A stretch of 64,000 nt of DNA from Hericium rajendrae (Eukaryota; Basidiomycota; Agaricomycetes; Russulales; Hericiaceae). The stretch is taken from assembly GCA_033439255.1 (NCBI GenBank), contig CM065882.1, positions 1,116,001 through 1,180,000 of the forward strand. Direction: 5' to 3'. The notes under the pieces are model-generated. The model searched no databases and was not told where the DNA came from. It saw only the letters and a program-made list of their open reading frames with translations. The position numbers were made by a program, and so were the translations under genes. Of this stretch, positions 1,431-54,110 are shown piece by piece (positions within the stretch are counted from its first letter, which is position 1; every line of letters starts with the position of its first letter).

Positions 1431-2028
1431 CATGGCTCTTGACGCCATGCGTGTGGGTACTGAGAGTGCATGCACCTGGTCTTGGTCATGTGCAAATTCA
1501 TGGGAACCTCCACATGTGGTGGATGTGTAGGGATGCAAGTGTGTGGGGCTAACAGACATAAGGAAGGTCACGGACAAGAAATATGAGATGTCATGTTAGG
1601 CACAACATGGAGATGGTGCATGGAGGGAATGCAGAGCGTTGAAGAGGCAGAGGGGGTCATGGAGTGTCCAAGGCAAACTGAAAATGAAAGATGATGACGT
1701 CTCACTCGTTATCAAGCGAGACTTACAAGATTAGTACAAATGCAGTGAAATAGAGTTTTATTGATGCACCTGAAGCCCTTCCGAGACCTACATAGCCCTC
1801 TTTGCCTTCGAGTTGAAAGAAATTGCAAAGAGGAGAAGATGGGAGGTTGTGACAAGTAGTAAGAGCAACTGACCTGTGAGTGACCTGTGATGTCACAGGT
1901 ACCTGACCTGCAGCTCTGGATCACCTGGTGGTGCAAACTCGTCCGGATCCAGGTCAGCCTTGCTGCCATGTTGAATACCTATGGGTTCAGATCTGGGTCA
2001 CTCACAAGTGCACTCATGTTGAACCCTA
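1431..2028 (-). mobile_element. U3: right part of a U-family element
   Basis: It ends in GTTGAACCCTA at 2028, the U-family terminal inverted repeat, preceded by the family's subterminal GGTCA/TGACC half-sites. On the minus strand it has the family hairpin GTCTCGCTT...CGAGTGAGAC at 1699-1722. The left portion is interrupted by P' and lies beyond the window, so its TSD cannot be tested (the right-hand candidate is TATGACTC). Confidence 0.65.
1699..1722 (-). other. U-family covarying hairpin (U3 copy)
   Basis: Stem GTCTCRCT paired with AGYGAGAC; it lies ~50 nt downstream of a degenerate donor-like GGTGCA on the minus strand. Equivalent in position to the hairpins at 6901, 11200 and 53767. Confidence 0.55.
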
Positions 2029-2299
2029 TATGACTCTGATAATAGTGTTATGTAGTATATATAACTTAACAGTATAGCAGCATATGTGAGCATAGATGTG
2101 CAGCCATCTCAAAAATGTAAAATCTACATAGCTGCCAGCCAATGCTATGCCTAGTTTCATAGTGCTATAGTTGCTATGTAGTTGGGCCACAATTTATAAT
2201 CAATCTGACCAGTGAGACTTAACTCATTTATGCACTGTTCTAAATATAACTCACAATTGAAAAAAAAATCATCTTGTTATATGAAGCATCACCCCTCTT
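2029..2299 (-). mobile_element. Z8: fragment of an old Z element, continued at 22882-22892
   Basis: On the minus strand, 22892-22882 (ACTTGGAGCAA) joined to 2299 downwards gives a degenerate Z 5' end: ACTTGG..., GAGGGGTGATGC, then an A/T-rich run. It resembles the Z10-like end at 54471. Element A is inserted here with a 2-bp TT duplication (2298-2299 and 22882-22883). No gene is visible. Confidence 0.6.
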
Positions 2300-2639
2300 C
2301 ATCTGAGAAAAAGGATTTTTATATAGCAGCAAGTCCCATTATGGGCCCTATCAGTGAGCTATAGAGGCTATGAGGCAGAACTGTCTAGCTATGAAGAGCT
2401 ATGGGGAGCTATGATAGGCCCTATAGCATGAGGTGTTAAATACATAGGATGCCATAGCCTCTATAGCTTGGGGTGTCAAATGTATAGAAGTATCATAGTT
2501 ACTTAGAGAAAGTATAGATACTATGGCTACTATATACACTATTGTCAGCTAGCCAGGACTCAAGACATTGAAGCAAAAAAAAATCTCATATTCAAGATAC
2601 ACTACCACAGACAAGAGCACTACCACTAACTATTTAGTA

Positions 2640-3720
2640 GGTAACAAATCGGGGGCCAGGAGAACCTGCATGAGCAGGTCACAGGCCAGAGGCATCGAAC
2701 AGGTGCATGCTGTCCGGGCACACAAACGAGCACACGGACAGGCACGCACTCAAACGGGTAAGTGCGCGCTGTTGGGCATGCATAAGCATGTGTCAGCAGT
2801 ACGCAGCACACCTTCTGGGGCATGCGTGAGCAGTTGGTGTGGACATGCGTGGCTGTGCACTCATATGAGAGTGCATACGCGCATGCCCCAGGGGAACACG
2901 CATGCAGTCGGGGCCTCGGTCTTCGCGCGGTCGCTGGGCCGAGCGTGGTCGCATACGTTGGAGAGGCTGTCTGGGTGTTGCGCACATCGGACTTCGCCCG
3001 GGTTTGCACACCATGCACGGTTGTGCTTGGGCCTGCATAGACATGCATGGCTGCACGCTCGCATGCAGGAGTGCGTGCGTGCACTGGTGAGGCCATTCGC
3101 GCATGCACGGCCACGTGTCATGTCCACAAGCACGTTGCTGGGGGCATGCTAGCTCATCCACACCATGCGGGAGCTCGCACATGAGCCTGTTGAGGGCGTG
3201 CGGTGTTGTCGTGGGCATGCGAGAAGCACAGTGGCTGCAGCAGGCCGGGCAAGGGACCTCAAGTCGCACCTCGTTGCCATAGCAACGAGGTGCGACAGTG
3301 GTGACGGCGGCGGGGATGTTGAGGAGATGGTGCAGCAGGCTCGGGATGTAGGCGTGGGTTGTTGGGACCTCGTGTGGGCTTGCATGCCATGCATCGCCAT
3401 GCGTGATCGTGCATGGGAGTGCATGCATATGCTAGCTGGCCTGTCCACAGAAGTGCGTGGCTGGGCATGCCTAGCCACGTGTCATGGCTGCAGGCATGTT
3501 GTCGATGGCAAGGAGGTGGTGGTGTGCATGGTTGGTATGAGGACATGCAGGTGTTGTTGAGAGGATGCGAGGGTGCAGGTGAACGACATCATGCCCTGTT
3601 GCCATGGCAACGAGGCACGATGACGTGGACACAGATGCCGTTGTCGATGCATGGAGTGCGGGAGGCGGGAGGCTCGTGGATGTGGGCGTGGGCATAGGCG
3701 TGGGGTAGGTGACGTGCAGT
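2640..3720. repeat. GC-rich GCATGC quasi-repeat block of A
   Basis: Dense CATGC/GCGTG text gives overlapping Pro/His/Ala/Arg/Cys-rich open frames on both strands. None shows a domain or conserved start between copies. It contains a near-perfect 34-bp hairpin at 3263-3296. The homologous block in A' is at about 19000-20170. Confidence 0.6.
3263..3296. repeat. 34-bp hairpin, GTCGCACCTCGTTGC stem
   Basis: A 15-bp stem (GTCGCACCTCGTTGC with GCAACGAGGTGCGAC) around a CATA loop. A' keeps a degraded version at about 19524-19555. A shorter relative (GTTGCCATGGCAAC) occurs at 3598 and 19203. Confidence 0.7.
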
Positions 3721-3833
3721 GGGTCGGGACTGCCAATGATGTAGTTGAGAAGCAGGTGTTGTGCTGACGGGGCAGCGGAAAGAAGGCGAGGTGGTGGAAA
3801 GATAGCGATGGGGGAGGAAAAGTGGAAGAACAA

Positions 3834-3869
3834 GAGAGTATTGCTCATTCGAGAACGAGTGATACTCTC
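3834..3869 (-). other. CATC-family hairpin (A copy)
   Basis: GAGAGTATTGCTC and GAGTGATACTCTC pair with two wobble pairs around a 10-nt loop. It lies ~40 nt downstream (minus strand) of a perfect donor-like AGGTAAGT at 3909-3916. Same position and orientation relative to the TATA box as in B, N, Q and A'. Confidence 0.7.
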
Positions 3870-4305: not shown

Positions 4306-4315
4306 CTATATAAGG
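4306..4315 (+). promoter_or_regulatory. TATA promoter of element A
   Basis: CTATATAAGG within CCACGTCTATATAAGGCC, followed by GCGCGATGCGC and a long pyrimidine-rich tract ending in donor-like TGGTAGGT about 100 nt on. The same arrangement recurs in A', B, C, N and Q, which is unlikely by chance. The transcript would run away from the hairpin-bearing transcript on the opposite strand. Confidence 0.65.
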
Positions 4316-6564: not shown

Positions 6565-6900
6565 TAGGGTTCAACACAAGTGCACTCATGAGTGACCTAG
6601 ATCTGAACTTGCAGGTATTCTATCTGTCCAAGGTGTTGACCTGGATCCATGCAGGTTTGCACCACTGGGTGATTTGGAGCTGTGGGTCAGGTATCTGTGA
6701 CATCACAGATCACTTGCAGGTCAGTTGGTCTTGAAGTTGTGTCTCACTTTTATGATGCCCTCCTCTTTGTTTCTTCATCTGGATCCTCCCCTTTTCACCA
6801 TATCTTCTCAATTCAATGGCAGGATGGGTGTTATGGAGATTCAAGAGGCTTCTAGGTGAGTCCAAAAGCCTTTTATTTCATTGTATTGTACTGATCTCAA

Positions 6901-6928
6901 GAGTCTTGCTCGATAACAAGCAAGGCTC
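6901..6928 (+). other. U-family hairpin (U2a copy)
   Basis: GAGTCTTGCT pairs with AGCAAGGCTC. It follows a donor-like AGGTGAGT at 6864 by ~30 nt and precedes TTCTTTGACAGG. Several pairs differ from the CATC version in a compensatory way. Confidence 0.6.
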
Positions 6929-10883: not shown

Positions 10884-12265
10884 ATTAGGGTTCGACACGA
10901 GTGCACCCATGGATGACCCGGATCCGAACCCATGAGTATTCAACATGGCGCAAGGCCTGACCTGAATCTGTGTGGGTTTCAGCCACCGGGTGATCCGGAG
11001 CCGTGGGTCAGGTACCTGTGACATTACGGGTCACTCGCAGGTCAGTACGTTCATTTTTCTCTTACACCTCACCACACCCTCCAATCGTTCTCTCTTCGTC
11101 GTTCCTCGTCAACACAGCCGCAGGAAGGGTTTTGGAAGAGTTAGAGAGGCATAAAGTGAGTCTAAATGGCCTTTTTTCCATTTTGCTGTACTGATCACAA
11201 GTCTCGCTCACATTATCAAGCGAGACTCATCTTTTGTTGTTCTTCGACAGTCCCCAATGCTTCACCATCCTTCGACAGCTATCTCGCTTATCGCGCACCA
11301 CCCATATCCCCCCTCATCATTCCTGGTTCTAAAATCCCTCAAGAGCCCATAATACTATCGTTCAATCAGCAGCCCGGCCCTTTCCCACAACCTGCGCTCA
11401 TATGTGCAAGGGATTTTACCTCCCATTCATGCCCCCAAAGGCAAGTGCTGTCTTGCTATAGTGTGTTCACAGCCAGCAACGTGTTATCAACCACAACTGA
11501 TCATTTGTTGATCACTCACACAGGGGCCGCATGCGTCTGATGACTTCAAGACTGTCCATGCCTGTATTTCTCCCATCCTCCGCTGTACGCCTCCCTGATG
11601 GCGCGCATCTGCTGCACATGGCATCTTCGTGCGAACATGCGACTCTATTAAGAGCCATGCATGCTCGCATCCTCGTCTGCCGTGCCAGACTGATTTGTGC
11701 TGATACTTTGAGCACGATGATCCCGAGCGGACATGCCGCACATCAGATGCACCACAAGGACATCAAGAACACGTACGTGCACGTCATGCGTCGTATCCAG
11801 GACACATATGTGCATGTCATGCAGTGCGTCCGAGACACATCGCATTTGGTACATTTATAGCCGAGATGCTCAACGTGAGTGGGGTAGAATGTGCAGCGTG
11901 CATGGCAGTGGGGCTAGTGAACGTGCATGCACAGAGGCACCGTGACGATAAGTGAGTGGGGCAGCGGCGGTAAACAGGTGGTGGCGTGCAATGAAATTGG
12001 CCTCAGATCTGCAGCTAATAAGACATTCTGGTACATTATGTAGTGCAATTCATGTACATATCAATGTCTATTTAATAAATAAGAGTTGGAATTGCAGATC
12101 ATTATCGGGTGACTTGCGGGTCAATACACTTCAGCAAATCCTTGACCTGGATCCGGACAGGTCTCAGCCACTGAGTGATCTGGATCTGCGGGTCCGATAC
12201 CTACGAGTAAATTTGACAGGTATACCTGTATCGACCCGCAGGTGACTCTGAATTGTGTCAATTCC
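10884..12265 (+). mobile_element. U1: U-family element, 1382 bp, inside U2a
   Basis: Ends ATTAGGGTTCGACACGAGT and, inverted, GGAATTGACACAATT, flanked by TATAATAT on both sides (10876-10883 and 12266-12273), an exact 8-bp TSD. Removal restores GCAATATAATATGTTAACC as in U2b. It carries the family hairpin (11200) and donor-like AAGTGAGT (11155). GC-rich frames at 11500-11950 show no domain. Confidence 0.85.
11200..11227 (+). other. U-family hairpin (U1 copy)
   Basis: AGTCTCGCT pairs perfectly with AGCGAGACT around a ten-base loop, followed by TTCTTCGACAG. The last motif also follows the hairpin in A' (18970-18980), a CATC element. Confidence 0.65.
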
Positions 12266-12659
12266 TATAATATGTTAACCAAAATAAAGTTTGGATAGCA
12301 GGTCACCTGCAGGTCACTCACAGGTCAATGGGTTTGAGCACAACCTTGATCTGGATTTGTGCAGGTCTCAGCCACCAGGTGATCTGGATCTATGAGTTAG
12401 ATCCCTGCAGGTCAATTTTGTGGGTATACCTGTGTTGACCTACAGGTAACTCTGACTCGTGTTGAACCCTTAAGCATATAAAAAAAACACTATTTAATCT
12501 AATCTAATCATGAGTAGTTTAGCTCCTACCTCTGATAACTCTACATTTTCTGCTATGTTATATATCTTAGCACCTTATTTTATATATAATCTTGTATGTT
12601 ATACAGTACACACTTGTCATATCTTATTATACTCAGCTCAATATATGATATACACTATT

Positions 12660-12815: not shown

Positions 12816-12854
12816 GATTTAATGTAACTTGATCAGTTCTCAACCAATTCACCT

Positions 12855-13345
12855 GTTCTCAAATGCATCTGGATCTGCTCATTTATTGCTTTCTGACAGT
12901 ATTTTTTGCATCCTGATCTGTGCAGAACTCATAGAATGCAATGAATTTCTACATTTTCCCTTTATGACACTTGAACTTGAGCTACCTCAGTCCATTCTTC
13001 ACCGATTTACTCGTTCTCAAATGCGTCTAAATCTACTCACTTATAGCTTTGCTACCATACTTCATGCATCCAAATCGGTTAAGAACTCACAGAATGCAAA
13101 GTGTTTCTTTTTTTCCTCTTCTAAAATGCTTGAACCCTAGCTAACTAGGCCAATTCTCAACCAATTTACTCGTTCTAAAATGCATCAGAATCTACTTATT
13201 GATAGCTTTCTGACGGTACCTTAGGCGTTAGGATCGGTGCAAAACTCGCAGAATGCGAATTGTTTCTGCATTTTCCCCTAGAATGCTTGAACTCCAGCTA
13301 ACTTAATCAGTACTCAACCGATTCACTTGTTCTCAATTGCATCCA
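12855..13345. repeat. 158-bp tandem repeat, ~4 units (Z2 copy)
   Basis: The marker GTTCT(C/A)AAATGC recurs at 12855, 13013, 13172 and ~13329, spacings 158, 159 and 157. Each unit carries CTTGAACTyyAGCTA and a GAATGCAAA(A/T)TG segment. The same array occurs in Z1, Z3 and Z4, and expanded in Z9. Confidence 0.75.
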
Positions 13346-13511
13346 AATATACCAGAAAGCTGGTCTCTAACATAATTTACTGCTTATAGAAAGATACAGC
13401 CACTAAATGATACACAGCAAACAAATGTACATACTGTTTATTGATAAAATGAGCAAAAAATGCAATTTATCGGTAGCAGTGGGTCCTGAGACTCGGTCAT
13501 GTGATCTTACA

Positions 13512-14650: not shown

Positions 14651-16073
14651 TAGGGTTCGACACAAGTCAGAGTCACCTGTAGGTCAACACAGGTATACCC
14701 ATAAAATTGACCTGCAGGTATCTAACTTGTAGATCTAGATCACCTGGTGGCTGAGACCTGTACAAATCCAGATCAAGGTTGTGCTCAAACCCATTGACCT
14801 GTGAGTGACCTGTGGGTAACCTGCTATCCAAACTTTATTTTGGTTAACATATTATATTGCAAAGTTCAAATCTATATGTCATGATCCCTAACTAACTACA
14901 TACTATATGTCATCTGCCAACACTAACTTACAGCTCCAATCACATATGCACATTATCACTATATCTTGTCATACCCATGAAGTGTATAAAGTCTACAAGC
15001 AAGGCATGGATTCAAAAGGCTGCATACGACATACTTGTAGCATCGACATGGGCATGTGCATGTCGGTGGGGCAATGAGACCGGGGAGGGCAGTGCATTTT
15101 GATTGTTGAATAGCACTAATGGCATATAAAACTTGCCTCACATTGGGCTTCTGTCAGACGAATGATATGACAGCATGCATAGTGGCATGTGTGATGTCCA
15201 TGGGCATGAATGCACACATGTAGTTTGAGCAATGGACTATGGGATGGTGGGGGCATGTAGTCAAAAATGTGTATGCTGGCAGGGCATGTATTGGTAGATG
15301 CACACTGTCTCAGACATGCAAGGATATGCAAAGCTGTTTGTAGACAACTGCGCATTGTTGAGGCATGCTAGGCACTGCTCGGATGATCAGCAAAAAGATG
15401 TCAAGCCTTGCTGTTGTAGCAACAATGCTGTAGCAACAAGACCTGACAGGCATTGTGGGCCTTGCAGTTGCAGCACTAGACTGGCACTGTGCATACTCTT
15501 ACTGTTGTGAGTGGGAATTAAATCTCTGGTACACATGAGTACTGGTTGTCGAAGATGGGTAAGGGCCGGTTGGCTGGTTGACCTGTTGATGAGGACGATG
15601 GGAGAAGCACAGATGGTACACGAAATATGGTAGATGATGTCAAAAAATGGTGGGATGTCATGAAACCCATCAAACATCATGAAACCTGTGGAAGAACAGT
15701 GAAAAATGAGAGCCTTGCCTGTTATCGAGTGAGACTCCTGAGATCAGTACAGTACAATGAAATAAAAGGCTTTTGGACTCACTTAGAAGCCTCTCGAATC
15801 TCCATAACACCCATCCTGCCATTGAATTGAGGAGATATGGTAAAAAGGGGAGGATTAAGATGAAGAAACAAAGAGAAGGGCATCGTAAAAGTGAGACACA
15901 ACTTTCAGACCAACTGACTTGCAAGTGACCTGTGATGTCACAGATACCTGACCTGCAGCTCCAGATCACCCAGTGGTGCAAATCTGCATGGATCCAGGTC
16001 AGCACCTTGGACAGATAGAATACCTGCGAGTTCAAATCTAGGTCACCCACGAGTGCACTTGTGTTGAACCCTA
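14651..16073 (-). mobile_element. U2b: U-family element in Z2, 1423 bp
   Basis: Ends TAGGGTTCGACACAAG and GTGTTGAACCCTA, flanked by ATATGCTT (14643-14650) and ATATACTT (16074-16081). It is the same insertion as U2a, inherited by both Z1 and Z2, and gives the uninterrupted reference for C and U1. Eroded hairpin at ~15707-15735; donor-like ACTCACTT at ~15780 (minus). Confidence 0.8.
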
Positions 16074-18484
16074 ATATACTTAAAGTGATGTTTGCACAAT
16101 TGATGCTCTCAGGCATTTGTATAAGTTTTTTGTTACTCTAAACCTTCATGCTAATCGACAGGCAATTTTACCAGAAAGTAGTTGCCATATTTGGTCACTA
16201 ATTTCTGCCAGTATACAAAATATGGTTTGAAGGTAAGAATTCAATTTTTATAGTATTTTATGCATGTAAAATAGAAAAATACTGACTAGATTATACATTG
16301 AAGAGATATAAGCTCTATTTAAAAAAAAAACTGGTATGATTTATGTTATTTTTTGTAAAAGTCAGAAAAAAAATCCAAATATAGAAATTAAATTCTGTCT
16401 TTGGTGCTAGCAGCAATGTATACAAATCAATAGAAGGTGCACAGGCTAACAGGAAATGTATGAGGTAGTAGAAGCATACATAAGTTTGTTGTGATGCTCA
16501 TAGGTTGATACATGTGTAAGCTAATCAACAAAAGTATGCATAGGTCAAAAAATGTGAGCCAAGAGTGCATATATGAGTTGGTGTAGTGTGTATCATCTGA
16601 AAAATTGAAATTTCATATAGCCCAGTATTGATCTATATGTTTTATCATAGCACTATAAGGTCTATCACTATTTATGCCACCACAGTTCTCAACTATGTAA
16701 GACTATGAGGCCTATCATAGCTATCATAACAGTAGTTGGACACTATATAGTGCTACATGTTTCTGAAAGATAGCTGTAGTTGTTGTACAAATCATATAAA
16801 TTCAAAGGCTTGCTCTGATCTATATGGTCCCTACTATGATCCCTGCTATTAGTACTGTCTCAGATCAATCAGGTACAAGAGATATAAAGCCAAAATCAAT
16901 TATATTTCATACAGCTACTAATACAATCAAGTATATTACAAGTTCAAACAGTGCACACATGCACAATGGTACACATCATGTACAGGTAGAGCTATGTGCA
17001 GGCATGTGTGCACTGGTAAGGCACAACAAAAGTACATATGTGCATAAGGCACTAGGTTCATGCACAAGGCATGATAAGTGTCATAGCTGTGCAGGAGGTC
17101 CAGTGGCCATGCTCACCAATGTTAAGCTGTAGTGGGCCTATATATAAGATGCAATGCGCAGTGAGGATGTGTGAGATATTGAGAGCCATGCATGAGGCAT
17201 AGAGGGTGAGCATAAGGCATACAGGCCCATATGTAAGGCTGCTACTAGCTTGTACAGGAGATCAACAGGGTGTGGTGGCCATGCACAGGGTGCTGCAAGC
17301 ATGTGCAGAGTGTCAAGATGCTGTGGGCCTGTACATGAAGTACAGTAAGCATCTATAGGATGGTGGCTTGTATGCAAGATGTAGTGTAGCATGATAAGCA
17401 TGCATAAGGCACTAAGCCTATGCATGGCTTGGTATGTCTGTGTATGAGGCATGAGGCACAAGGTACAGGCAGGTGACACACCTGCACATAGCAACACACA
17501 ATGCATGTATATAGTTGTGCTGGCTGACATGCTCACATTCAGCTGTAGTCATCTCTAAGCTGTCACTGGCCCATCCACAAGGTACATCGAGATGTGGTAG
17601 ACCAGCATAGGGTGTGACCAGTGAACATGAGGCATAGTGAGCTGGCATGAGGTCATCTGAGAAAAACACCAGAGGTATATTGCACTATATAGCCTACATA
17701 GTTCTAATAGGGCCATAGCAGTCCCCTTTTCTTCATAGCCATTCTATAGCAGCAAGGTAATCTATATAGGGCTACATAGCTACCATAGGATCAGACAGTA
17801 GCTATGGTAGCTATGGTAGCTAGCATCAGTATAGAGCATAAGCTATCATAGCTGCTATAGCTACCATAGGATAGGATAGCTATAAGAGCTATGTTAGCTA
17901 TATGATATATTACTTACTATCATATTATATCTAGTTATCTAAATTTCTATCTACCCTATGTCATCTCTATCAAATATGTCACTCAGAAGTACTATAAATA
18001 TATCAAAAAATATCAAAAAAATCATAAATCTGTCTTATTATATTTGAAGCACTCAAAACATCGAAAATTTGAAAGCATTATGTTATAAACAATATCTCAT
18101 TGCAATACATTAATACAAAACTACAATACACTACAACAGATAGTAACTTATAATCAACTTAAGTTAGATAAGATAAAAGATAAGATAAGATATAAAACAT
18201 AAGATAAAACTTATCTCACAAAGATAAGAAAAAAGCGAAAACATGATCTAAAAGTAGGTTAATAAATTAGTACAAGACAAAAGGTATATATATGAAACAT
18301 AAGACATACCAAAGAAAAGAAAAAGCAAAAATATAAAGTCTATAAAAGAATATTAGGGTTAATGGACAAGAAAACAATACAGTAACCTACCGAACATAAG
18401 AAGGTTAGAGTAGAAGAGGAGCGAATGATGAAAGACAGGAGATGGTAGTGGTAGGGAAGAGAGAGAGACAGCGCGTCGCGCAGG

Positions 18485-18494
18485 CCTTATATAG
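18485..18494 (-). promoter_or_regulatory. TATA promoter of element A'
   Basis: Minus-strand CTATATAAGG in CCACGTCTATATAAGGCC, followed by GCGCGACGCGC, a CT-rich leader and donor-like GGTAGGTTAC ~100 nt on. Confidence 0.65.
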
Positions 18495-18938
18495 ACGTGG
18501 CGAGCGGAGCACCAAATGTGGCTGCCGAGACCGGGCCGGGCAGTGCCGAGCACTCGCATCAGAGGCTAAGTGCCAGATTTTGCTAAGTTCACTTCATTAC
18601 CCAGTAGCGTATAGTAGCTTAGTTAGATACTCACCTCATACGATTCGATGTAATAGATCAATTATTGCTGTTGTCTTTTTTTCAGAATTTAAAGCATTTG
18701 ATTTGATTTACTAGGCTCGAAACGTTCGAACTCGCGCGCGTTCGGTAGCTGAAGCACCGAAGGCGCGTCGAAGTTCGACTCTCATACTTACCACCACTCT
18801 CCTCCCTCTCCTCGTTCCTCCGTCGTTTCTCTTCACTTTAACTCGTTGGATCATACGCGGGAGGGTCTCGAGGAGGGCATAGAAGGATACTAGGTAAGTA
18901 AAACTAGTCTTTATTCTAATTGTTCGTACTAATAAAGG

Positions 18939-18969
18939 GAGTATCGCTTGTCGTTGACGAGCGATACTC
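18939..18969 (+). other. CATC-family hairpin (A' copy)
   Basis: GAGTATCGCT pairs fully with AGCGATACTC, with further pairing of GTCG and CGAC inside the loop. It follows a perfect AGGTAAGT at 18891 and precedes CGTTCTTCGACA. Confidence 0.7.
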
Positions 18970-18999
18970 TCGTTCTTCGACATCCACGACGCCTCAATC

Positions 19000-20170
19000 A
19001 TCCCATCCCCGACTTCCTCCCTCGCATTGCCTTCCCTCCGCCATGTCGCCAGCGCCCTGCCTGCCTCTCGAACACGTCGTCGGCAGCCCCGACCCTCTGC
19101 GTGTCACCTTCCCCATGCCCATGCCCATGCCCACGAGCCTCAAGCCTCCCTCCCGTTGCCCCGTTCACCGACAATGGTGTCCGCGTCCACGTCGTTGCGC
19201 CTCGTTGCCATGGCAACGGGGCGTGATGTCATTGGCCCGCGCCCTCGCATCCCTTCAACAATACCCGCACGTCCTCAACAGGTTCGTGCGGGCTCACCAG
19301 ATTTACCAACCCCGTGCATCACCACCTCCCCACCATCGACAACAAGCCTGCGGCCACGACACGTGGCTAGGCGCACCCGGCCACGCACTCCCGCGGACAG
19401 GCCAGCCAGCGCATGTACGCACTCCCGCGCGATCACGTATGGTGACGCACGGCATGCAAGCCTGCGCGAGGCCCCGACAACCCATGCCATCTCCTCAACA
19501 CCCCCGCCGCCGTCGCCACCATCGCACCTCGTTGCTACGGCAATGAGGTGCGACTTGAGGTCCCTTGCCCGGCCTGCCGCGGCCACTGCGCCCATCGCAC
19601 GCCCACGACGACACCGCGCGCCCTCAACAGGCTCGCGTGCGAGCTCCCGCATGGTGTGGATGTGCCAGCATGCCCCACGCCGCCGGCAACGTGCTCGCGG
19701 ACACGACACGTGGCCGTGCGTGCGCGAACGGCCTCACCAGCGCACGCACGCACTCCTGCATGCGAGCGTGCCACCACGCACGTCTACGCAGGCCCGGGCA
19801 CGACCGCGCACGGTGCGCAAACCCGGGCGAAGTCCCGATGTGCGCAACGCCCCGACAGCCTCTCCAATGTATGCGACCGCGCTCGGCCCAGCGAGCGCAC
19901 GAAGACTGAGGCCCCGACTGCGCGCGTGTTCCCCCGGGACGTGCGCGTATGCACTCTCATGCGAGCGCGCAGCCGCGCATGTCTATGCTGGCGCGCATGC
20001 TCGCACTAAGCGTGCCTGCTCACGCACGCCCCGGAAGGTGCGCTGCGCACTGCCGACACATGCTTATGCATGCCGACAGTGCGTGCTTACCCGCTCGAGT
20101 GCGTGCCTGCCCGTGCGCTCGTTCATGTGCCCGGACAGCGCGCGCCTGTCCGATGCCTCCGGCCTGTGAC
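19000..20170 (+). repeat. CpG-rich block of A' with a 380-codon open frame (coding doubtful)
   Basis: An open frame at 19027-20169 gives a 380-residue Pro/Ala/Arg/His/Thr-rich translation without domain, signal peptide or membrane segment. The homologous block in A is broken in every frame, chiefly by C-to-T changes at CpG. It could be the body of a non-coding exon, or low-complexity protein; the sequence does not decide. It would follow the donor-like site and hairpin at 18891-18969. Confidence 0.35.
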
Positions 20171-20744
20171 CTGCTCATGCAGGTTCTCCTGGCCCCCAAT
20201 TTGTTACCTACTAGATAGTTAGTGGTAGTGCTCTTGTCTGTGGTAGTGTATCTTGAATATGAGAATTTTTTTTGCTTCAATGTCTTGAGTCCTGGCTAGC
20301 TGACAATAGTGAATATAGTAGCCATAGTATCTATACTTTCTCTAAGTAACTATGATACTTCTATACATTTGACACCCCAAGCTATAGAGGCTATGGCATC
20401 CTATGTATTTAACACCTCATGCTATAGGGCCTATCATAGCTCCCCATAGCTCTTCATAGCTAGACTGTTCTGCCTCATAGCCTCTATAGCTCACTGATAG
20501 GGCCCATAATGGGACTTGCTGCTATATAAAAATCCTTTTTCTCAGATGGTGTAGCAGGCATGCATGAGGCACTGGTCCCAGCACAATGCTACATGCCAAG
20601 TATAAGACATGAGGTACAGGCCTGCATGCAAGATGTCAGTATACCTGTACATGACCATACATGACGGTAATTTATATACCTTCATTGATGATAAAAAAAA
20701 GGAATCGTTTTGCCATGCACAGCATTGGCCCTCTTCCACCAAGT

Positions 20745-23730: not shown

Positions 23731-25681
23731 TATGTAAGACCTTGAAAATAGGCAAATAGGAGGTTTTGTGATAATTCGAGTGTACCTCCTTAAGTACTGG
23801 AGATATCATCGGTCCCTTGATTGTGTCAGAAAGATCTCCATTATACCTTTTCAACAACACTAGGTACACTACAATTGGATGAGTCGATAAAAAGATATGG
23901 CCTCAACAAGTTTGCCCCTACCTCTAATACCAACCCTTCAGTAATCGCTACCGCGTTTTCTCAATACTTATCCGATCGTCTTGTATAATATGCCGTTGGA
24001 AAGGTGCAAATCAGACCTTTTCAACGGTATCTTTAGCGTGTAAATAGCGCCACTCATTGCTCCACTACAATGCAATCACTATGATCTCCTTCTCAAGGAT
24101 ATCTTTTGAAGTGATTTGCTCATATCTCAGTCATTTCTGGACCTATTGTTATGAAAACAAATGTTCTGAGGAGGTAAAATTTGCTCTCATTATATTACCA
24201 TATATCACACTCACTTACATCAATAAAAAGATACAGACTTTACTATGAAGTACATTTATTCACTATCTTGTAACAAGTTTGCACTTTTTCATACTGAGAA
24301 CTTCTGGTCCTAATATGACTAGCATTGATTTAAATATGCATATAGTCTAACAATGATTTAGTTAGATTTGAAAGACTGAACATCTCTAAGAAATATCCAA
24401 AATTATAAGAATGGCAATTGGCAGAATCAAACTTATAACCTCACTTTATATGAGAAATTAGTTAGAGTAAATGATTCCAAGAAATCATAATGAGATATAA
24501 ATGTTCTATATAATGATTGTGAACAGTGACAGTGAGATATATTGATTGTAAAATGAAAGAAAAGAATTCAAGGTTGAACTGGAATTGAACCTACAAACTC
24601 GTCAGATTGTTGACTTGTGATTATATAAGCCAACTGCCAAATGGGGATGGTCATCGTTTTGGTGTCGTTTTTGATAGGAAAAGCCGGTATAGAGTAAACG
24701 ATTCTAAGGAATCGTAATAAAACAAAGCATAAAAGAAAAAGTCATGCCAGAGCTGGAATTGAACCTGCAAACTCGTCAGATTGATGATCTTGCAATTACA
24801 TAAGCCAACTGCCAAATGGGGATGGTCATCGTTTTGGTGTCGTTTTCGATAGGAAAAGCCAGTATAGAGTAAACGATTCTAAGGAATCGTAATTGCGCTA
24901 TCGTGATAAGGATATAACCTAATCATAGGGTTAACTGCATAAATCTATCGAGTTTTGCATCTACATCTAGTTCCTCCTGCCAACCAGGCCTTTCATATCT
25001 GCTCAGCTTAACTCAGCTAGCCAATTCCTGACTGACACTATCGTGTACAGTATCATGCATGAACCATGTGTAGCAGACCCATTCTCTCTCAAAGGAAGAA
25101 ACGGAGTGATCGAGAGCTCTGCCAGACACTGCCACAACGCTTCGAGCATTATACTCAAACTCCAGACCTGCACTGGGCAAATGGAGTGTCGCACCAGCAT
25201 ACGATCCCATAGTACACAGGATATCGTACCATGATGCATGACTCTGCATATCTCTATGCACTGGAGTCCGTCGATTGTTGATGATCGCGATGCCATTGAA
25301 CACGGAGGGCCACTGATATAATGCTGACTTCAAGGGATCTGTTCTGCTCAGCAGAGACTTCACGGATGCCGTAGCATGATGTAGATTCCCGTGCACAACT
25401 GCCAGAATCACGCTGAATAGTGCAGATGATTTAGCAATGTCGTGGAGCCATGCTGCACTGTTCGAATTGCCATGCCATAGATTTATGACTGGGGATGTAC
25501 ACAATACATCGGTGGGACATTGGAAATGCATCTCAGTAAGTTGTCCATCCTGTGAAGATGGAATGCCATACATCCTCACATTGTGGGCTTGTTGGAACCA
25601 TGCCAGAGACAGGTTCAAAGTACCGGGGACAAAGCAGAGGCATGCAGCAGTGTGCTGGAACAAGTCTGCATCCTCCCTCTA

Positions 25682-26343: not shown

Positions 26344-26634
26344 CATCAGGAAAAGGGGAAATGTCTGACTGTCTGACTGTCTGACAGTTGTCTGAAATGT
26401 CTAAACTTCTGACCCACATATGGATGGAATTACATATAGATTATTATTATATAGAGCTCAGATAGACTCAGACTTCAGTCTGACATCAGACAAAAATGTC
26501 TGAAAGGCACTTGACGATAGGGACCCGTCTAATTGGTCTGATTGTCTGATCATCTGGACCAGACAGAACCAGACAGAATCAGATCAGATTAGACAAAGTC
26601 AGACACCATTCAGACAAATGCTGGTTTACTGATG
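26344..26634. mobile_element. Probable small CATCAGG element in the dioxygenase gene
   Basis: It begins CATCAGGAAAAGG and ends TTTACTGATG, with a TCTGAC-rich interior like M2/M3. A matching TSD could not be defined, so the ends are provisional. Confidence 0.45.
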
Positions 26635-27600: not shown

Positions 27601-30600
27601 TAGCCACATCTGAGAAAACTAAATTTTATATAGCTGCAGCATCAGGAACCTTCAAAACTTTCTGTTTGACCTGCGAGACATCTGACAGTGTCTGCATGAC
27701 CTGCAGCAGTTGCATCAGACACATCAGATACTCTCAGACAACATCAGCTACTCTCAGCTAGCTGCAGAATATTTGACCTCAAGATTCAAAAAAGTATCAA
27801 TGCAGAATGCTTGCAGACTGATTACGATTCCTTAGAATCGTTTACTCTATACCGCCTTTTCATAGTGAAAACGACACCAAAACGATGACTATGCCCATTA
27901 GGCAGTTGGCTTATATAATCACACATCTTCAATCTGACGAGTTTGCAGGTTCAACTCCAGCTCTGGTCAAACTTTGTTGATTTAATGTAACTTGATCAGT
28001 TCTCAACCAATTCACCTGTTCTCAAATGCATCTGGATCTGCTCATTTATTGCTTTCTGACAGTATTTTTTGCATCCTGATCTGTGCAGAACTCATAGAAT
28101 GCAATGAATTTCTACATTTTCCCTCTATGACACTTGAACTTGAGCTAACTCAGTCCATTCTTCACCGATTTACTCGTTCTCAAATGCGTCTAAATCTACT
28201 CACTTATAGCTTTGCTATCATACTTCATGCATCCAAATCGGCTAAGAACTCGCAGAATGCAAAGTGTTTCTTTTTTTCCTCTTTTAAAATGCTTGCACCC
28301 TAGCTAACTAGGTCAATTCCCAACCAATTTACTCGTTCTAAAGTGCATCAGAATCTACTTATTGATAGCTTTCTGACGGTACCTCATGCGTCAGGATCGG
28401 TGCAAAACTCGCAGAATGCAAATTGTTTCTGCATTTTCCCCCTAGAATGCTTGAACTCCAGCTAACTTAATCAGTACTCAGCCGATTCACTTGTTCTCAA
28501 ATGCATCCTAATATATCAGAAAGCTGGTCTCCAACACAATTTACTGCTCATAGAAAGATACAGCCACTAAAATGATACACAGCAAACAAATGTACATACT
28601 GTTTATTAATAAAATGAGCAAAACAATGCAATTTATCGGTAGCAATGGGTCCTGAGACTCGGTCATGTGATCCTACAAGACCTTGTGCGGCCGAACAAGG
28701 TCTTAGCGCCCACTTACATAAGCATAAGTCGCCTAGAGAGCCAATACACTGTATACAGTGATTGCTTTATAGCTCTGCAACGAAGCAATCAATCGACAAA
28801 CGGTAAATTGTGTTCAAATACCTTTGATTACACCTGTCCAACCCAATTTAGAATATGAAAATTGGATCACTCCAAGAAGAGATATTTCTCGATTTATGTG
28901 CCACATCAGCAAAACAGTATTGTCTCCTATCTCAACAACAAGTGGTGCTATAATGTTGTAAACTATACTGTTAGAAAGCTACTGTAAATCCAATTTCAAT
29001 AAGCCCTCATACATCATGATTGATGCAGTATTAGCAGAGCTATAAAGCAATTAGTCTGCCACATCATCACGGACATATAGTTCAATAGATCAGCATTTTG
29101 CCATGCTATCTTACTGTTTGTGACACTATTCTAAAGCTATTCTAAATTTGATTCCAACAAGCTTTCACTCATTCTGATTCATGTGGTATTGAGAGGGCCA
29201 TGGTGCAATCTCTATGCCACATCATCAGAAGAGATCCAGAAAGTTGGTGATGGCCCTACACCATCATTGGACACCTCAGCCGCAACTCACTGTAGATGGG
29301 AACTGGGCGTGTCCAAGCCTTGTAGTCAGTGTGCACTACTGGTAGTATCACACTGACTTCAAAGCTATCTGAAGAAAAGAAGAGAAAGCAGAGAGCGCAA
29401 CATCAACTACTGCTGACATAAGCTAAGCACAGCCACCAGACCTTGTGCGGCCGAACAAGGTCTGCTATTGATCACGTGATTGGCCATTAGCTTTGTTCAA
29501 CAATACAATGTTTGACATTGATCATATATTCAATCTTGAATCTTGTTTGATTAGACATACAACTAGACTACTACTATAATTGTAGATATTACAAGTATCT
29601 ATAGTATAAGTATATATAATAGTGTATATCATATATCGAGCTGAGTAGAATAAGATATGACAAGTGTGTACTATATAACACACAAGATTATATATAAAAT
29701 AAGGTGCTAAGATATATGACATAGCAGAAAATGTAGAGTTATCAGAGGTAGGAGCTGAACTACTCATGATTAGATTAGATTAAATAGTGTTTTTTTATAT
29801 GCTTAAAGTGATGTTTGCACAATTGATGCTCTCATGCATTTGTATGAGTTTTTTGTTACTCTGGACCTTCATGTTAGTCGACAGGCAATTTTATCAGAAA
29901 GTAGTTGCCATATTTGGTCACTAATTTCTGCCAGTATACAAAATATCATCTGAAAAAACCAAATTTTATATAGCTGCAGGTTACATTATAGGTGCTATCA
30001 CAGAGCTATGTAAGCTATATAGCTTGCTTATCTAGCTATATAGCATTATGAGAACCTTCATAGCTTTCATAGCTAGTAGTACAGGCTATGTAGTGTTATC
30101 ATAGCTTCCATAGCTAGTAGTATGATCTATATAACACTATCATACTGGGTAGGGTGAGCTATGAAAGCCTATGACTTCTATGAATACTATGTCTTGAAGT
30201 CAATCAGGTATTACAAGTTCAAGTCAAAATTGATTATATTTAATAATACTACTACTACAATTCAAAGTACTACAGATATGAATCATGCCGGGTGATGCCA
30301 AGGCAGGCATGCACCCAATGGTAGCATTTGCGTGTAACGCGGCATCCGTGTGTGAGGTACGGTGGGTCTGCGCGAGGTGCGCAAAGCTGGCGTTAGGCGT
30401 CAAGAGGCGGCGGAGAATACGCGAGGGGTGCACGACGCACGCAGTAGGCGGCGCACCCATGCGTGAGGCAGCCAGGGCAGGGAGGCACGGCACACGGCTT
30501 GCACTTGCAAGGTACGCGGGGACACTTGCGAGGTCCGACGTGTCCGTACACACGGCATGGGGTCCACACGCTCTCGCACACGCGCTGGCTGTGCCCGTTC

Positions 30601-31354
30601 GTGATAGGGCGGGCCTACGCTGTTCGGTGGACTTGTGCACGGCATGCATGATGCACAGAAGGCATACGTGGGGCGCGAAAGATGCACACGGGATGTGTGC
30701 AATGCACAGGCCCGTGCACGAGCCCAACGGGCCGCGAGGCCGTGCGCAGGGCATGGGAGGCAGCGCGAGGCACGCGAGGACGTGTGCGAGGAGTCAAGGT
30801 GTGGCGAGAGGCGGCACGACGGTGCAGGGCGATGTGAGGTGTGACGTGACAGGCCTGCGCGCTGGAAGCAGAGGTGCTGGGGACGTGCGCGAGGAACGTG
30901 CGCGGGGCGCGACAGGCATGGAAGGTGGCGGGCCCGGATACACTATGCGGCGAGACAGCGCACACGATGTGTGCGGGGATGCACGACGTGCAGGCCTGGT
31001 GTGGGAGGCATCAGGCATGTGGGGGGCAAGCGACGGTCTTCGGGCTGTCGCGAGCCCGTGCACGAGACATCGGCTGCCACGGGCCCGTGTGCAATGCGTC
31101 AGGCCTGCGTGCGAGGCGCACAGCTGTAAGCAGGAGGGCGGGCGAGCAGAGCCACGCGCGACGTGTGAGCGTACGTGCGCTGGCATGCCCGTCCGGAATT
31201 GTGGCCAACGGGGTGCACTCCGGTGGTCATGGTCGACGGAGGCAGCGCCACAGGCGCTGGTGACGTGGCGGCGAGGCGGCAAGGTCGAAAGGTGATGGGG
31301 TGATGGAGGAGAAACGACGGGGGGGTGAGGATGGGCGCAGGAGGACCAAGTCGT

Positions 31355-31386
31355 CGAGAGTATTGCTCGAATTCGAGTGATACTCT
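31355..31386 (-). other. CATC-family hairpin (B copy)
   Basis: GAGAGTATTGCTC and GAGTGATACTCTC around GAATTC; paired throughout with wobbles. On the minus strand it follows AGGTAAGT by ~45 nt. Confidence 0.7.
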
Positions 31387-31830
31387 CTGTTTTAGCAAAC
31401 ATACGAAATAGAAAGATTTTTTTACTTACCTATGTCCCTCGGCTTCCTATGCGTCCCTCTCCGGCATCCGATTCGATGATAAAAGGGAGGGAAGCAGGAG
31501 AGAAGAGGGAGGAGAAGAGAAGAGGAGTGGGAAGTGGTAGCAGAGAAGAGTCGAGACGAAGTTCAATGCACGTTTCGGTGCTTCAGCCACCGAACACGCG
31601 CAAGTTCGAATATCTCGAACTTATCAAATCGAATCAAATCGAATAGAATTTGAAAAAAAGAGAGACACTACAATGTACTTATAGAATACAATCCAGTCAG
31701 ACAGATATCTAGCTAAGGTACTACAAGCTACTTGACAGCGACATGAATTTAGTGAAGTCTACGACTTAGTCTCTGTCACGGCACTTGGCAGCGCCCGGCC
31801 CGACCACATTTTGGGCTCCGCTCGCCACGT

Positions 31831-31840
31831 CTACATAAGG
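31831..31840 (+). promoter_or_regulatory. TATA promoter of element B
   Basis: CCACGTCTACATAAGGCCC then GCGCAACGCGC, CT-rich leader, donor-like TGGTAAGTTC at ~31934. Confidence 0.6.
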
Positions 31841-33000
31841 CCCGCGCAACGCGCGACCTCTCTTTCTTCTCAACTACTACCATCTCTCATCTTCGCGACT
31901 TCTCTCTATTATCCTTCAACATCTTGTTATCTCTGGTAAGTTCTTTATATTGTTGTGTTCTTATTATCACTAATATGGATTATCTTATCAAGATATTTTC
32001 GCTTTTTTGTATGTTTACTTGTAAGTCTAATGTTTCTTAACTACAACTAATACTAATCTTATGTTTATTGTAGAACTATTTTTCGCTTTTTAAAGACTTT
32101 GTTGTCTTATATTTTGATTAACAAAGACTTAGGAAACTTGTAGAGTAGTATACAATTTGTGTAGTAGTACCTCTTTGAATAAATATAGTCTTATAATTTT
32201 CGATGTTTTGTCTGTCTTAAAACTAAGAGATTTTGTAAGATATAAGGCCTATAAAATGCTTGAAAATATTATCATAATTGTATAGGATATCTGATATATA
32301 TATCAAGAAGAGGAGATGTAGTGTAGGTAGTCAACATAGCTTTGATAGGTCTATAAGACAGAATAGCATATATATAGTCCATAGTTGACATAGCTGTCCT
32401 CTTATGCTATGATAGCTATGATAGCTATACCTTTGAGCTATGACAGCTATGGTAGCTATGATAGCTCTATATAGATGACCCTGCATCTATAGCTAGGCTA
32501 TATATAAAAGAACACTGCTATGGACCTATCAGAGCTATGTAGCTGACATAGCTCTATATAACAGTGGTAATTTTTTCAGATGATGATTTGAAAGTGAGAA
32601 TTCAATTTTAATAGTATTTAATGCATGTAAAATAGAAAAATACTGACTAGATTATACATTGAAGAGATATAAGCTCTATTAAAAAAACTAGTATGAGTTA
32701 TGTTATTTTTTGTAAAAGTCAGAAAAAAATCCAAATATAGAAATTAAATTCTGCCTTTGGTGCTAGCAGCAATGCATACAAATCAATAGAAGGTGCACAG
32801 GCTAACAGGAAATGTATGAGGTAGTAGAAGCATACATATGTTTGCTATGATGCCCATGGGTTGATACATGTGTAAGTAGATCAACAAAGGTATACATAGG
32901 TCAAAAAATGTGAGCCAAGAGTGCATATATGAGTTGGTGTAGTGTATATCATCTGAAAAACTGAAATTTCACATAGTCCAGTGTTGATCTATATGTCCTA

Positions 33001-38666: not shown

Positions 38667-38696
38667 GAGAGTATTGCTCATTCGAGCGATACTCTC
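38667..38696 (-). other. CATC-family hairpin (N copy)
   Basis: GAGAGTATTGCTC and GAGCGATACTCTC around ATTC; ~40 nt after donor-like AGGTGAGT (minus, ~38741). Confidence 0.7.
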
Positions 38697-48521: not shown

Positions 48522-48551
48522 GAGAGTATCACTCGAATAAGCGATACTCTC
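48522..48551 (-). other. CATC-family hairpin (Q copy)
   Basis: GAGAGTATCACT and AGCGATACTCTC, one mismatch or wobble; ~40 nt after AGGTAAGT (minus, ~48594). Confidence 0.65.
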
Positions 48552-51403: not shown

Positions 51404-51984
51404 ATAAAGCAAGATCTGTAAAGGGAAGTGTGCCATCTTGAATCTGCCTACATTTGGCCTTTTCTGTGGTAGGAAGAAAATTGTTGATATAGCACTTGAG
51501 AGCTAGGGTGAAACCAGGAGCGTCATGTTCCTTCTCGATAGACAATATAGGAACCTTGAGAAATAGGGGTCATTTGGCAACCTGAATGGATGGTGTCATT
51601 TTCAAAGGAGGTGTAGTACAAGGTGTTGTCATAGCTCCCTCTTGCTGAAGAAAGGTATCAAACATGGCCACTTTTTTCTGACAAGTGAGCCATTATGCCA
51701 TCTGTGATCGCTTGTCTCGGTGGTTTGAAGCACACCATGCCTCCTTGGCAAAGTCGATGTGAAAGTGTTCAAACATTTCAGTATTGTAGTTATCTGTTGT
51801 TCAAACAGACAGATGGACTCTGTATAATGAACCAAGGAATGGAGTTTAGGAATATTGAAGTGCTTTCGTATGCTAAGATTTTTCAAGACCTGCCTGTTCT
51901 TGAAGAAGTCGTCTAATGCCTTCTCCAGATAGCCAAGGGTTGTATCATCATGAGTGAGATACTGGACAATATAGATGAAATCTA
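51404..51984 (-). pseudogene. Plavaka-type transposase gene 1, upstream piece
   Basis: From 51984 down: DFIYIVQYLTHDDTTLGYL, then IRKHFNIPKLHSLVHYTESI, the family's characteristic H-F-N-x-P-K-L-H-S block. A degenerate T-x-E/S-E-R-L-H segment and LALKCYINNFLP with PFTDLAL follow before Z4. At least two frame changes or stops. The R element (51985) separates it from more N-terminal coding, which I did not find in the window. Confidence 0.75.
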
Positions 51985-52595
51985 CATCAGGAACCTTGAT
52001 AATTTTCTGACAGGTCTGATAGTGCTGATAGTACCTGATTGTGTCTGAGAGCTTCTGATCAATCTGCAGCAACTGATCATTTTTGCAATCTGACAATTTT
52101 CTCTCAGCAGTGATCAGATAACATCAGACATGTTCAGCTAATGTCAGATATACTTTTAAAAATCAAATACTTGTTAGTTTCTAAGCAGATGCATCAGATA
52201 TCTTCAGACAATATCAGAAATACTTTGAAAAATCAGATGTCTATTAGTTTTTAAGCAGATGCATCAGATATCTTCAGATAGTATCAGAAATACTTTTAAA
52301 AATCAGATATCTATTAGTTTTCAAGTAGATGTATCAGATATCTTCAGACAAAATCAGAAATCTCATTAAAAATTATATGCTTGTTAGTTTTCAAGCAGAT
52401 GCATCAGATATCACTTGGTGGAAGAGGGCCGATGTTTTGCATGGCAATACGATTCCTTTTTTATTGTTAGCTAGTATATTTTATAAAGGTGCATAAATAA
52501 GTAAACTTGCTTCTTGTTCTTTTGCATAATGCAAATTGCCAAAACCTGATAGCATACCTTCAAACTCACATTGTCTACCAGTGGCTGCTCCATCA

Positions 52596-54110
52596 TAGGG
52601 TTTGACATGATTCAGAGTTACTCATGGGTCAACACGGGTAAACCTGTGAAATTTACCCATGGGTTCCTGACCTGCAGATCTAGATCACCTGGTGGTTGAA
52701 ACCTGTCTAGATCCAGATCAAGACTTTGCTAAACTTCATTGACCTACAGGTAACCCATGGTGACCTGTAACTTGAACTTCAATTGCCAAAGTGTTACAAT
52801 TATTCAGGATATGAGCTCTAATTTACAGTAGTAACTACATATAATTGTAGAGCTAATACTGTTGCACTACACCCTCTGCTGCTACCCATTGCACTCTGTG
52901 AGTGATATGGCTTAATGGCACAGGTTGCTACAGGGCTTGTGGGGGCCATGTATAAGCAGGCACACATGCAGTAGAGGGTCATGTGCAGATAAACACGAGG
53001 GCACGTGGCAGTATGTGCACCATCTGTGCCATACATGGACATGCAGTCCAAGAATTGCAGGGACAGCAGGTGCATGTGCATGCATGCACTGCTGTGGTGT
53101 ATGCTATCCTAGGCATGCAAAGGCAATTGTGCACTGTCAGATGCAAGTGGAAGTTGCATAAAATGGGGTGTCACTCATCAGAGACAGCTGAGGGGATGAC
53201 ATGCTTGCTGAGAAAGTTGAGAATGTCCTCACAGATCTTGGCAAGCTTGAGCTCACTCCTGATCCTCTCCTAGTCATCCTTGATCACGGAGATCTGCATC
53301 TCATTGTCCTTCAACTGATCATTCTGTCCAATCAAAGACACAATCCATCACGATGTGCATTGAGAGCCAATGATGTCCTTGCATGAGGCATCTGTGGGGA
53401 AAACAGTCAACTAGACATGCAAATGACTGTATACTGCAGTACAGAGGGATGAGAGTGATGTAAGCACAAGCCTGATGCTGGAGTCTGTAGATGCAACCTG
53501 CACAATTTATCAACAAATGAGAATCAAGCCTCATTGCTATACAGCATGTTGTTGCTGACGTTATGCTAGCACTATGTATGCTCTTCAGGATGTGGATGGA
53601 AGCTGAAACACTTGCACATGTGAGAGCAAAGTTTGTAGGTATTATCAGTACTAAGGGCATTATTGAACATACAGGTGATGGAGAGAAGCATGAACAACAT
53701 GCTAGGTGAGACATAATGTCAAAAGATGATAGTGGGGCAGTGGGCTATCAAAGAATATTGAAAACAAGTCTCACTCAATAATGAGTGAGACTCTCAAGAT
53801 CAGCAATGTACAACAAAATTAACAGTGATTAGACTCATCTTAAGTCTCTCAAGCCGATTCAAACCCATTTCTGCTATTGCATTGACAAAAATGATGCAGT
53901 GAAAAGCATACTTAGCATGTCATGATAGTAGTAAGTGAAGACAAGATGAACTGATCTGCAAATGATCCATGATGTCACAGGTACCTGATCTGCAGCTCCA
54001 GATCACCCAGTGGCTGAAACTTATGTAGATTCAGGTCAGCCCTTGCGGCATGTTGAATACCCATGGGTTCAGATCCAGGTCACCCATGAGTGCACTCATG
54101 TTGAACTCTA
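52596..54110 (-). mobile_element. U4: U-family element, 1515 bp
   Basis: Ends TAGGGTTTGACATG and CATGTTGAACTCTA, flanked by CTCCATCA on both sides (52588-52595 and 54111-54118), an exact 8-bp TSD. Hairpin at 53767. Frames at 52818-53714 have no recognisable domain. Confidence 0.9.
53767..53792 (-). other. U-family hairpin (U4 copy)
   Basis: AGTCTCACTCA pairs perfectly with TGAGTGAGACT around ATAA. Relative to U1 a C-G pair has become T-A on both arms. Confidence 0.7.

Follow-up and report, generated by a model that had tools for sequence, protein, structure and literature searches.

A covarying hairpin beside intron-like splice signals in non-autonomous DNA transposons with different termini in Hericium rajendrae

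The stretch analysed here comprises 64,000 nucleotides of the genome of the basidiomycete Hericium rajendrae (assembly GCA_033439255.1, contig CM065882.1, positions 1,116,001 to 1,180,000) and is referred to as the window. It harbours transposable elements of two kinds. The CATC elements are 2.6-3.3 kb long, with CATC..GATG ends and 2-bp duplications, and the U elements are about 1.3-1.5 kb long, with TAGGG-type ends and 8-bp duplications. Both carry a short hairpin downstream of splice signals, which is probably part of an intron. All nine hairpins listed in a preliminary description of the window were recovered, and a tenth, decayed copy in element U3 was missing from that list. Based on the intron signals, the sense strand is the minus strand for the copies at 1699, 3834, 31355, 38667, 48522 and 53767, and the plus strand for those at 6901, 11200 and 18939. 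The donor-like sequence AGGTRAGT, previously attributed to both kinds of element, is present in six of the ten copies; two have AAGTGAGT, and the homologous site is altered in the copies at 53767 and 1699. A known RNA family was ruled out for these hairpins by a scan of the window with Rfam, which returned no match at the gathering score. Two further window candidates, at 26576 and 26469, pass the scripted filter but look false. Both are included in the spacing, wobble and window/TATA tallies below, 26576 alone in the termini search, and neither in the tree null, the survey of 3' splice sites, the shuffle covariation or the by-catch tallies.

The hairpin is genuine and far beyond chance, because its stem pattern GTMTCGCTC..GAGCGAKAC occurs at 275 sites in the 46.8-Mb genome, whereas the reversed control patterns, tried for all stem variants, gave no match each. 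Two one-change variants of the stem occur at 48 and 53 sites, and a third stem, GTGTCGYTC..GARCGACAC (the GTGTC..GACAC type), at 59. These copy numbers are lower bounds, since they were obtained with sequence patterns and not with a covariance model. For the GTGA type, 36 of the 53 sites were examined, the other 17, many of them from one subfamily, being left out. For the GTGTC type, 50 sites are among the matches listed of the 59; 15 regions were taken, one of them without its site, leaving 14 hairpins. Pair 4 of the stem is A-T in 43 and C-G in seven of the 50 matches listed of the 275, although the pattern also permitted A-G and C-T.

On the sense strand, the hairpin follows a regular order of signals: the donor AG/GTRAGT, an A/T-rich stretch, the branch-point motif CTRAY, 6 nt, the two stem arms with their loop, and a pyrimidine-rich, AG-poor tract. 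The donor lies about 38 nt from the branch-point A. The stem begins 42-48 nt from the GT in 110 of 112 measured copies, a narrower spacing than the 30-60 nt originally given. The branch-point motif, which had escaped the preliminary description, has its A 6 nt from the stem in 93 of 113 copies. All 84 one-mismatch hairpins picked by the stem only score higher on one strand for donor and branch point, a few of them weakly. A comparable rule combining donor and branch point was satisfied by 299 of 40,000 random window positions. The GTGTC-type hairpins have a donor-like site in all 14 cases and the branch point CTRAY in 11, CTTAY in two and TTTAC in one; three copies with this stem (L116, L117 and L124) have TACTTAT, TATTTAC or TACTTAC in place of CTRAY. 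Donor and branch point at near-fixed spacing are as expected of a spliceosomal intron. From this order and the near-constant spacing, we place the hairpin downstream of the branch point and upstream of the 3' splice site in what appears to be such an intron. The earlier view of a hairpin next to a 5' splice site was therefore right about the proximity of splice signals, but the hairpin is positioned by the branch point and lies on its 3' side. A GAGGG-like motif was noticed by eye about 6-12 nt 5' of the donor in many CATC and U copies. A spliced-leader-like RNA was considered and appears unlikely: no Sm-like site was seen by eye between donor and stem, and a branch point is present.

Pairing was assessed in 55 of the 60 cluster representatives; left out were L017 (long loop), the window copy U2a (11194-11233) and sites in L061, L074 and L091, which have short flanks or a doubtful context and are still part of the wobble counts. 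Changes on both arms were found at ten of the 14 stem pairs, and 94.7% of the cells pair. None of 500 shuffles reached the number of two-sided pairs or the covariation score, and slid partners score far lower. The ten two-sided pairs include all five that lie outside the 9-bp core selected by pattern, and pair 4 tolerates three different pairs, A-T, C-G and G-C. A second test used a null model in which changes are placed independently on a tree of 93 copies built from upstream sequence only; it is home-made, not R-scape, and pairs 6 and 7 were pattern-selected in it. With Watson-Crick pairing, none of 500 runs matched the observation at pairs -1, 0 and 4, and the values for pairs 8 and -2 were 0.02 and 0.04. 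At pair 4, three double changes on the same branch were found.

A further set of candidates was chosen by donor, branch point and left arm only. All 11 pairs are Watson-Crick in 23 of these 62, and the scores are two-peaked. The count for by-catch copies is fairer, because 19 of the 23 were stems that had picked their regions. Among 20 by-catch copies, for which the stem was no selection criterion, ten have 11 standard pairs of 11, five have 10, three have 9 and two have 8. Predicted RNA folds of six copies have z values of -1.8 to -5.9. The compensatory changes expected of base pairing are seen in the shuffles, the tree null and the by-catch copies alike, and they uphold the view that a covarying structure under selection accompanies the splice signals; independence of the arms is rejected by the shuffles of the 55 representatives and, at several pairs, by the 93-copy tree.

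If selection acts on RNA, G.U should outnumber A.C on the sense strand. Counted per 80% cluster, G.U:A.C is 20:5 at the non-CpG core pairs and 25:6 at the two outer pairs. The neutral background was taken from CpG changes in filler sequence, which on the sense strand of five copies of one subfamily number 86 C>T and 56 G>A (p=0.015). The other core and outer pairs taken together (45:11) exceed this background (Fisher p=0.008), the yardstick being CpG change itself, as non-CpG neutral changes are few and lean the opposite way (C>T 3, G>A 15). The wobble evidence put forward earlier is thus mixed, favouring RNA at these pairs and not at the CpG and loop-closing pairs, which are dealt with below. 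The strand bias of CpG change in these copies (L006:3582-6275 and four related ones) is of a kind that transcription-linked deamination could cause.

A second sign of a role at the RNA level is the avoidance of AG past the stem. In the 60 nt 3' of the stem, AG reaches 0.51 and GA 1.53 of expectation, as against 0.76 and 0.72 in filler; the AG:GA counts are 61:184 and 770:721, respectively. The wobble and AG evidence leans to RNA and is not decisive. A candidate 3' splice site, TTCTTYGAYAG, lies about 22 nt past the stem in four of 17 U-class copies examined and in near-exact form in two more.

CATC-type ends with 2-bp duplications were found automatically in ten of 37 hairpin copies, with CATCTGA and CATCAGG variants counted among the CATC-type ends, and L016 was added by eye. 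The duplications in the ten copies are GT, AT, GA, TA, TC or AA, a 2-bp match being weak for any single copy, and that of L006 is not clean. Duplications of 8 bp, of hAT or Zisupton type, are exact in L128 (GTCAATGT) and in the 1.8-kb copy L018m8741 (CTGCATAC), and were recognised by eye at U4 in the window. Other 8-bp matches around window copies were discounted, as they span large inverted duplications. TAGGG-type ends are usual for hAT elements. The distance from the stem to the left terminus is about 1.2-1.55 kb in CATC copies and about 0.3-0.7 kb in U-ended ones; with the stem this far from the termini, a transposase-binding subterminal repeat was rejected. Of 40 large-locus copies, 19 have a TATAWA box at -470 to -380, and almost all of these are CATC-class; seven of 351 control windows have one. 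Past the stem, about 0.7-1.3 kb of GC-rich sequence follows in the CATC-ended and chimeric copies examined, and not in U1 or U4. A coding role of this part appears unlikely: on informal comparison, long open frames vary among five copies of one subfamily, and because of this instability they look like stop-poor sequence.

In agreement with the preliminary description, which saw no evident protein in these elements, no transposase was found in hairpin-carrying copies. Matches to Plavaka and KDZ transposases are abundant in the genome. The proximity test used 151 listed hairpins, not the 275 pattern sites. These 151 hairpins show no excess within 6 kb of 79 of the 132 Plavaka matches and no above-chance proximity to 122 of the 172 KDZ matches, fragments and unlisted matches being left out in both cases, and the possibility that the hairpin is part of autonomous Plavaka or KDZ genes was rejected on these grounds. 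No CATC end of the tested type lies upstream of a Plavaka match. Among 40 U ends listed, none is within 6 kb upstream of the hAT matches tested, and one sits 2 kb upstream of a KDZ gene, that end being part of a separate U insertion which is itself complete. Judging from their sequences, the CATC carriers are non-autonomous elements with PlavakaB-like ends only. About 600-730 nt from the left end of the L006 element, a donor, TACTAAT and TTTCAG were seen by eye on the minus strand; these short-intron signals suggest a divergent transcript without the hairpin. At L011:4384-4965 and L018:4359-4937, two hairpin introns diverge about 510 bp apart, one side having the stem GTATCGCCTG. The stretch between them is 76.6% conserved across the loci, with far less similarity outside; this divergent pair is a bidirectional version of the module.

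That the hairpin is common to elements with different termini is confirmed for CATC-type and TAGGG-type ends. Chimeric copies connect the two. In L018m8741, with its 8-bp-duplication ends, the left end is 89% identical and the right end 81% similar to U2a (the left-end match was placed by coordinates), and an upstream block at about -440 to -205 is 67-73% identical to CATC-class copies. L012m4954 combines a CATC-class upstream region with a U-like far end, and five GTGTC hairpins follow matched left ends of U type at no more than 0.7 kb. The letters of the stem, once thought to go with the element ends, are not strictly tied to them, as GTATC and GTCTC stems are both found in CATC-ended elements (GTCTC in L020p4891). 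Several comparisons show homology stopping just 3' of the hairpin; in others, such as L015 with L024, it continues for hundreds of bases. The promoter-intron-hairpin module thus appears to pass between families. Its sharing is partly due to exchange, because there are chimeric copies and mixed combinations of stem and ends. The families described as unrelated do differ in their ends, but the chimeras imply that descent accounts for part of what they share.

The best explanation, to which we assign a probability of about 0.57, is that DNA transposons which are non-autonomous and apparently non-coding carry a spliceosomal intron whose RNA folds into a hairpin past the branch point and before the 3' splice site. 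The module would be transcribed and spliced from its donor. In the pre-mRNA, the stem would fold, burying the AG dinucleotides that are otherwise nearest to the branch point, and would shorten the path so that a downstream YAG comes within reach. The module could therefore splice onto whatever sequence comes next. The element may retain the intron since intron-containing transcripts accumulate better in basidiomycetes. This benefit is proposed because intron removal lowers mRNA accumulation in the basidiomycete Cryptococcus neoformans (PMC3744415, in the part concerned). The module would also have moved between carriers whose ends are of PlavakaB type and carriers with 8-bp-duplication ends. 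A more far-reaching version can be put forward only tentatively: the module may be a portable, sequence-specific half-intron, in which the hairpin replaces a fixed 3' splice-site context, which is traded between superfamilies and which is selected because splicing aids transcription, openness or escape from silencing.

Several observations weigh against the intronic hairpin. Judged by motifs, its weakest point is that a clear 3' splice site is confined to a minority of copies. The TTCTTYGAYAG-type site is missing in 11 of the 17 U-class copies examined; across all classes, the first YAG ends at least 70 nt past the stem in 42 of 60 clusters, seven of which have no YAG within 200 nt of the stem; and the first AG is GAG in 25 and AAG in seven of 107 copies, both being poor 3' splice sites. 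The TATA box is not common to the U copies, the single match in U2a falling outside the element. The 9-bp core of most copies was itself selected by a pairing pattern. In the 93-copy tree, pairs 1, 3, 9, 10 and 11 give no signal, and pairs 0 (0.08) and -2 (0.06) no longer reject the null once wobble is accepted as pairing. Finally, the two CpG pairs (G.U:A.C 41:22) are at the neutral background of 86:56 (p=0.64), and the loop-closing pair has more A.C than G.U (18:13). The G.U bias at CpG pairs was withdrawn as proof of RNA, because filler CpG changes are equally biased on the sense strand.

This lack of an RNA-type bias at CpG and loop-closing pairs would suit a palindrome acting at the DNA level, as would the core letters GTNTCGCTC, which are conserved beyond the demands of pairing. 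Such a palindrome may be the binding site of a dimeric protein, a transposase or regulator, or its symmetry may be kept by template-switch repair that copies changes between the arms. Quasi-palindrome repair also yields paired changes, and template switching in a palindrome can do likewise. We nevertheless regard this alternative as unlikely, since the stem is downstream of donor and branch point at a near-fixed distance, accepts three different pairs at pair 4, and is located away from the ends, some 300 to 1,550 bp inside the left terminus. Moreover, the excess of G.U over A.C at non-CpG pairs and the avoidance of AG past the stem speak for RNA. Conservation of primary letters as well as of pairing, seen across the classes of termini, could also mean that the RNA hairpin is read by an RNA-binding protein controlling export, retention or silencing, for example by escaping or feeding spliceosome-coupled RNA interference, and not 3' splice-site choice. 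Splicing geometry accounts more simply for the tight spacing between branch point and stem, which makes a protein-read hairpin distinctly improbable.

The half-intron may alternatively be a passive relic, the remnant of a 5' untranslated intron of autonomous transposase genes that no longer has a role. The absence of an evident transposase from the elements, in a genome rich in Plavaka and KDZ genes, would fit such an origin; the listed hairpins are, however, no closer to these genes than chance predicts, and homology ends just past the hairpin in several comparisons, so that the relic appears slightly less probable still. The long way to the first YAG and the AG-poor tract raise a last alternative, in which many subfamilies have no usable 3' splice site and splicing stops after its first step, donor cleavage giving a defined 3' end or a stalled spliceosome. 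The 3' end of fission yeast telomerase RNA is made by first-step-only splicing. This explanation is the least probable one, given the TTCTTYGAYAG-type site in six of the 17 U-class copies. In addition, exon positions -171 to -60 cannot be aligned in some cross-class comparisons, and therefore no conserved RNA product is evident, although other pairs align through.

Structured introns have precedents in yeast, where an intronic stem-loop reportedly acts as a 3' splice-site thermosensor, as attributed to Meyer and co-workers in 2011. The stem-loop of SUS1 intron 2 affects splicing, according to the relevant part of PMC4691836, and an intronic stem-loop is described as bringing cis-acting elements closer to each other (PMC7404189, in the passage concerned). 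As far as these accounts go, the likeness to the present hairpin lies in a structure near the branch point and the 3' splice site. The yeast stem-loops are described there as belonging to introns of host genes, with the SUS1 branch site near the apical loop. Stems that enclose a splice site lower splicing in yeast (PMC8496845); in the sections concerned, that paper treats stems of this enclosing kind and no hairpin past the branch point. In contrast to SUS1, a single conserved hairpin is found here in hundreds of transposon copies, starting 6 nt past the branch-point A.

Introners are themselves introns, with splice sites at or near their termini. The splice signals described here lie inside the elements, with hundreds of bases separating them from the termini, and in this the elements differ from introners. 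Proliferating stwintrons have inverted repeats and, in the part of PMC8469720 concerned with them, no short flanking duplications. In so far as stwintrons are described there, they and introners resemble the present elements as mobile sequences tied to spliceosomal introns. As for the carriers, PlavakaB of the CMCT clade is characterised in the section on its termini in PMC12730594 by CATCA..TGATG ends and duplications of 2 or 3 bp. The CATC elements match that description in both their ends and duplication length; they differ from PlavakaB in that no transposase was found in these copies, which carry an apparently non-coding unit with the hairpin intron. Duplications of 8 bp, given in the same section for hAT or Zisupton/Dileera (KDZ), are shared by the U elements, which are at most candidate members of these superfamilies. 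The source also describes, where it deals with gene capture, TET/JBP genes that fungal DNA transposons of different superfamilies carry. The present module would similarly have passed between superfamilies, but it is a non-coding promoter-intron-hairpin unit and not a protein gene. In the open-licence PubMed Central literature searched, no hairpin-intron module shared across transposon ends was found. Branch-point hairpins and PlavakaB-type elements are thus already known, and the hairpin-intron module across different transposon ends is apparently new. If the interpretation is correct, selection acts on how non-coding transposons are spliced, and their superfamilies exchange a structured intron module. 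Its three naturally occurring stems, in hundreds of copies, would then be a ready series of compensatory mutations for 3' splice-site choice in basidiomycetes, and would inform on the effect of splicing on transposon silencing.

Table. Hairpins, putative splice signals and carrier elements in the window (duplications of 7/8 and of U4 judged by eye)
Feature	Position	Strand	Details
CATC-ended element A' (CATCTGAGAAAAA..TTTTTCTCAGATG)	17654..20548	+	2895 bp, 2-bp duplication GT
A' putative 5' splice site AGGTAAGT	18892..18899	+	
A' branch-point motif TACTAATA	18927..18934	+	
A' hairpin (GAGTATCGCTT..GAGCGATACTC)	18939..18969	+	11 pairs: 10 Watson-Crick, 1 wobble
CATC-ended element	29947..32582	-	2636 bp, 2-bp duplication AT
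Hairpin of the 2636-bp CATC element	31358..31385	-	9/11 pairs; donor AGGTAAGT from 31431, branch-point CTAA 31395
Hairpin of CATC element A	3836..3867	-	9/11 pairs; donor AGGTAAGT from 3916, branch-point CTAA 3877
Hairpin in CATC element	38669..38694	-	10/11 pairs; donor AGGTGAGT from 38741, branch-point CTAA 38704
Hairpin in CATC-class element	48524..48549	-	9 Watson-Crick and 2 wobble of 11 pairs; donor AGGTAAGT from 48594
U1 left end (TAGGGTTCAACAC...)	6565..6732	+	
U1 putative 5' splice site AGGTGAGT	6854..6861	+	
U1 hairpin	6901..6928	+	branch-point TACTGATC 6889-6896; candidate 3' splice site TTCTTTGACAG ending 6952
U2a element (TAGGGTTCGACAC..)	10886..12267	+	duplication 7/8 matching
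U2a hairpin	11199..11228	+	donor AAGTGAGT 11154-11161; candidate 3' splice site TTCTTCGACAG ending 11250
U3 element (TAGGGTTCAACAC..GTGTCGAACCCTA)	14651..16073	-	duplication 7/8 matching
U3 decayed hairpin	15710..15737	-	8/11 pairs; donor AAGTGAGT from 15784
U4 element	52597..54110	-	8-bp duplication CTCCATCA, flanks compared
U4 hairpin (GAGTCTCACTC..GAGTGAGACTT)	53766..53793	-	donor position altered to AGATGAGT (53840)
Hairpin of U-class copy	1697..1724	-	donor position altered to AGGTGCAT (1771); branch-point CTAA 1734

The window also contains a gene with a Tet_JBP dioxygenase domain at 25013-25675 on the minus strand (Pfam PF12851, E=7e-15). Together with the many Plavaka and KDZ transposase matches, this gene fits a basidiomycete, probably an agaricomycete. 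Diverged units of about 158 bp form tandem arrays within larger repeats at 54658-55944, 12825-13352 and 56682-57263. Just beyond the end of the window, fragments of Plavaka transposase genes are found at C5:1180586-1184999.

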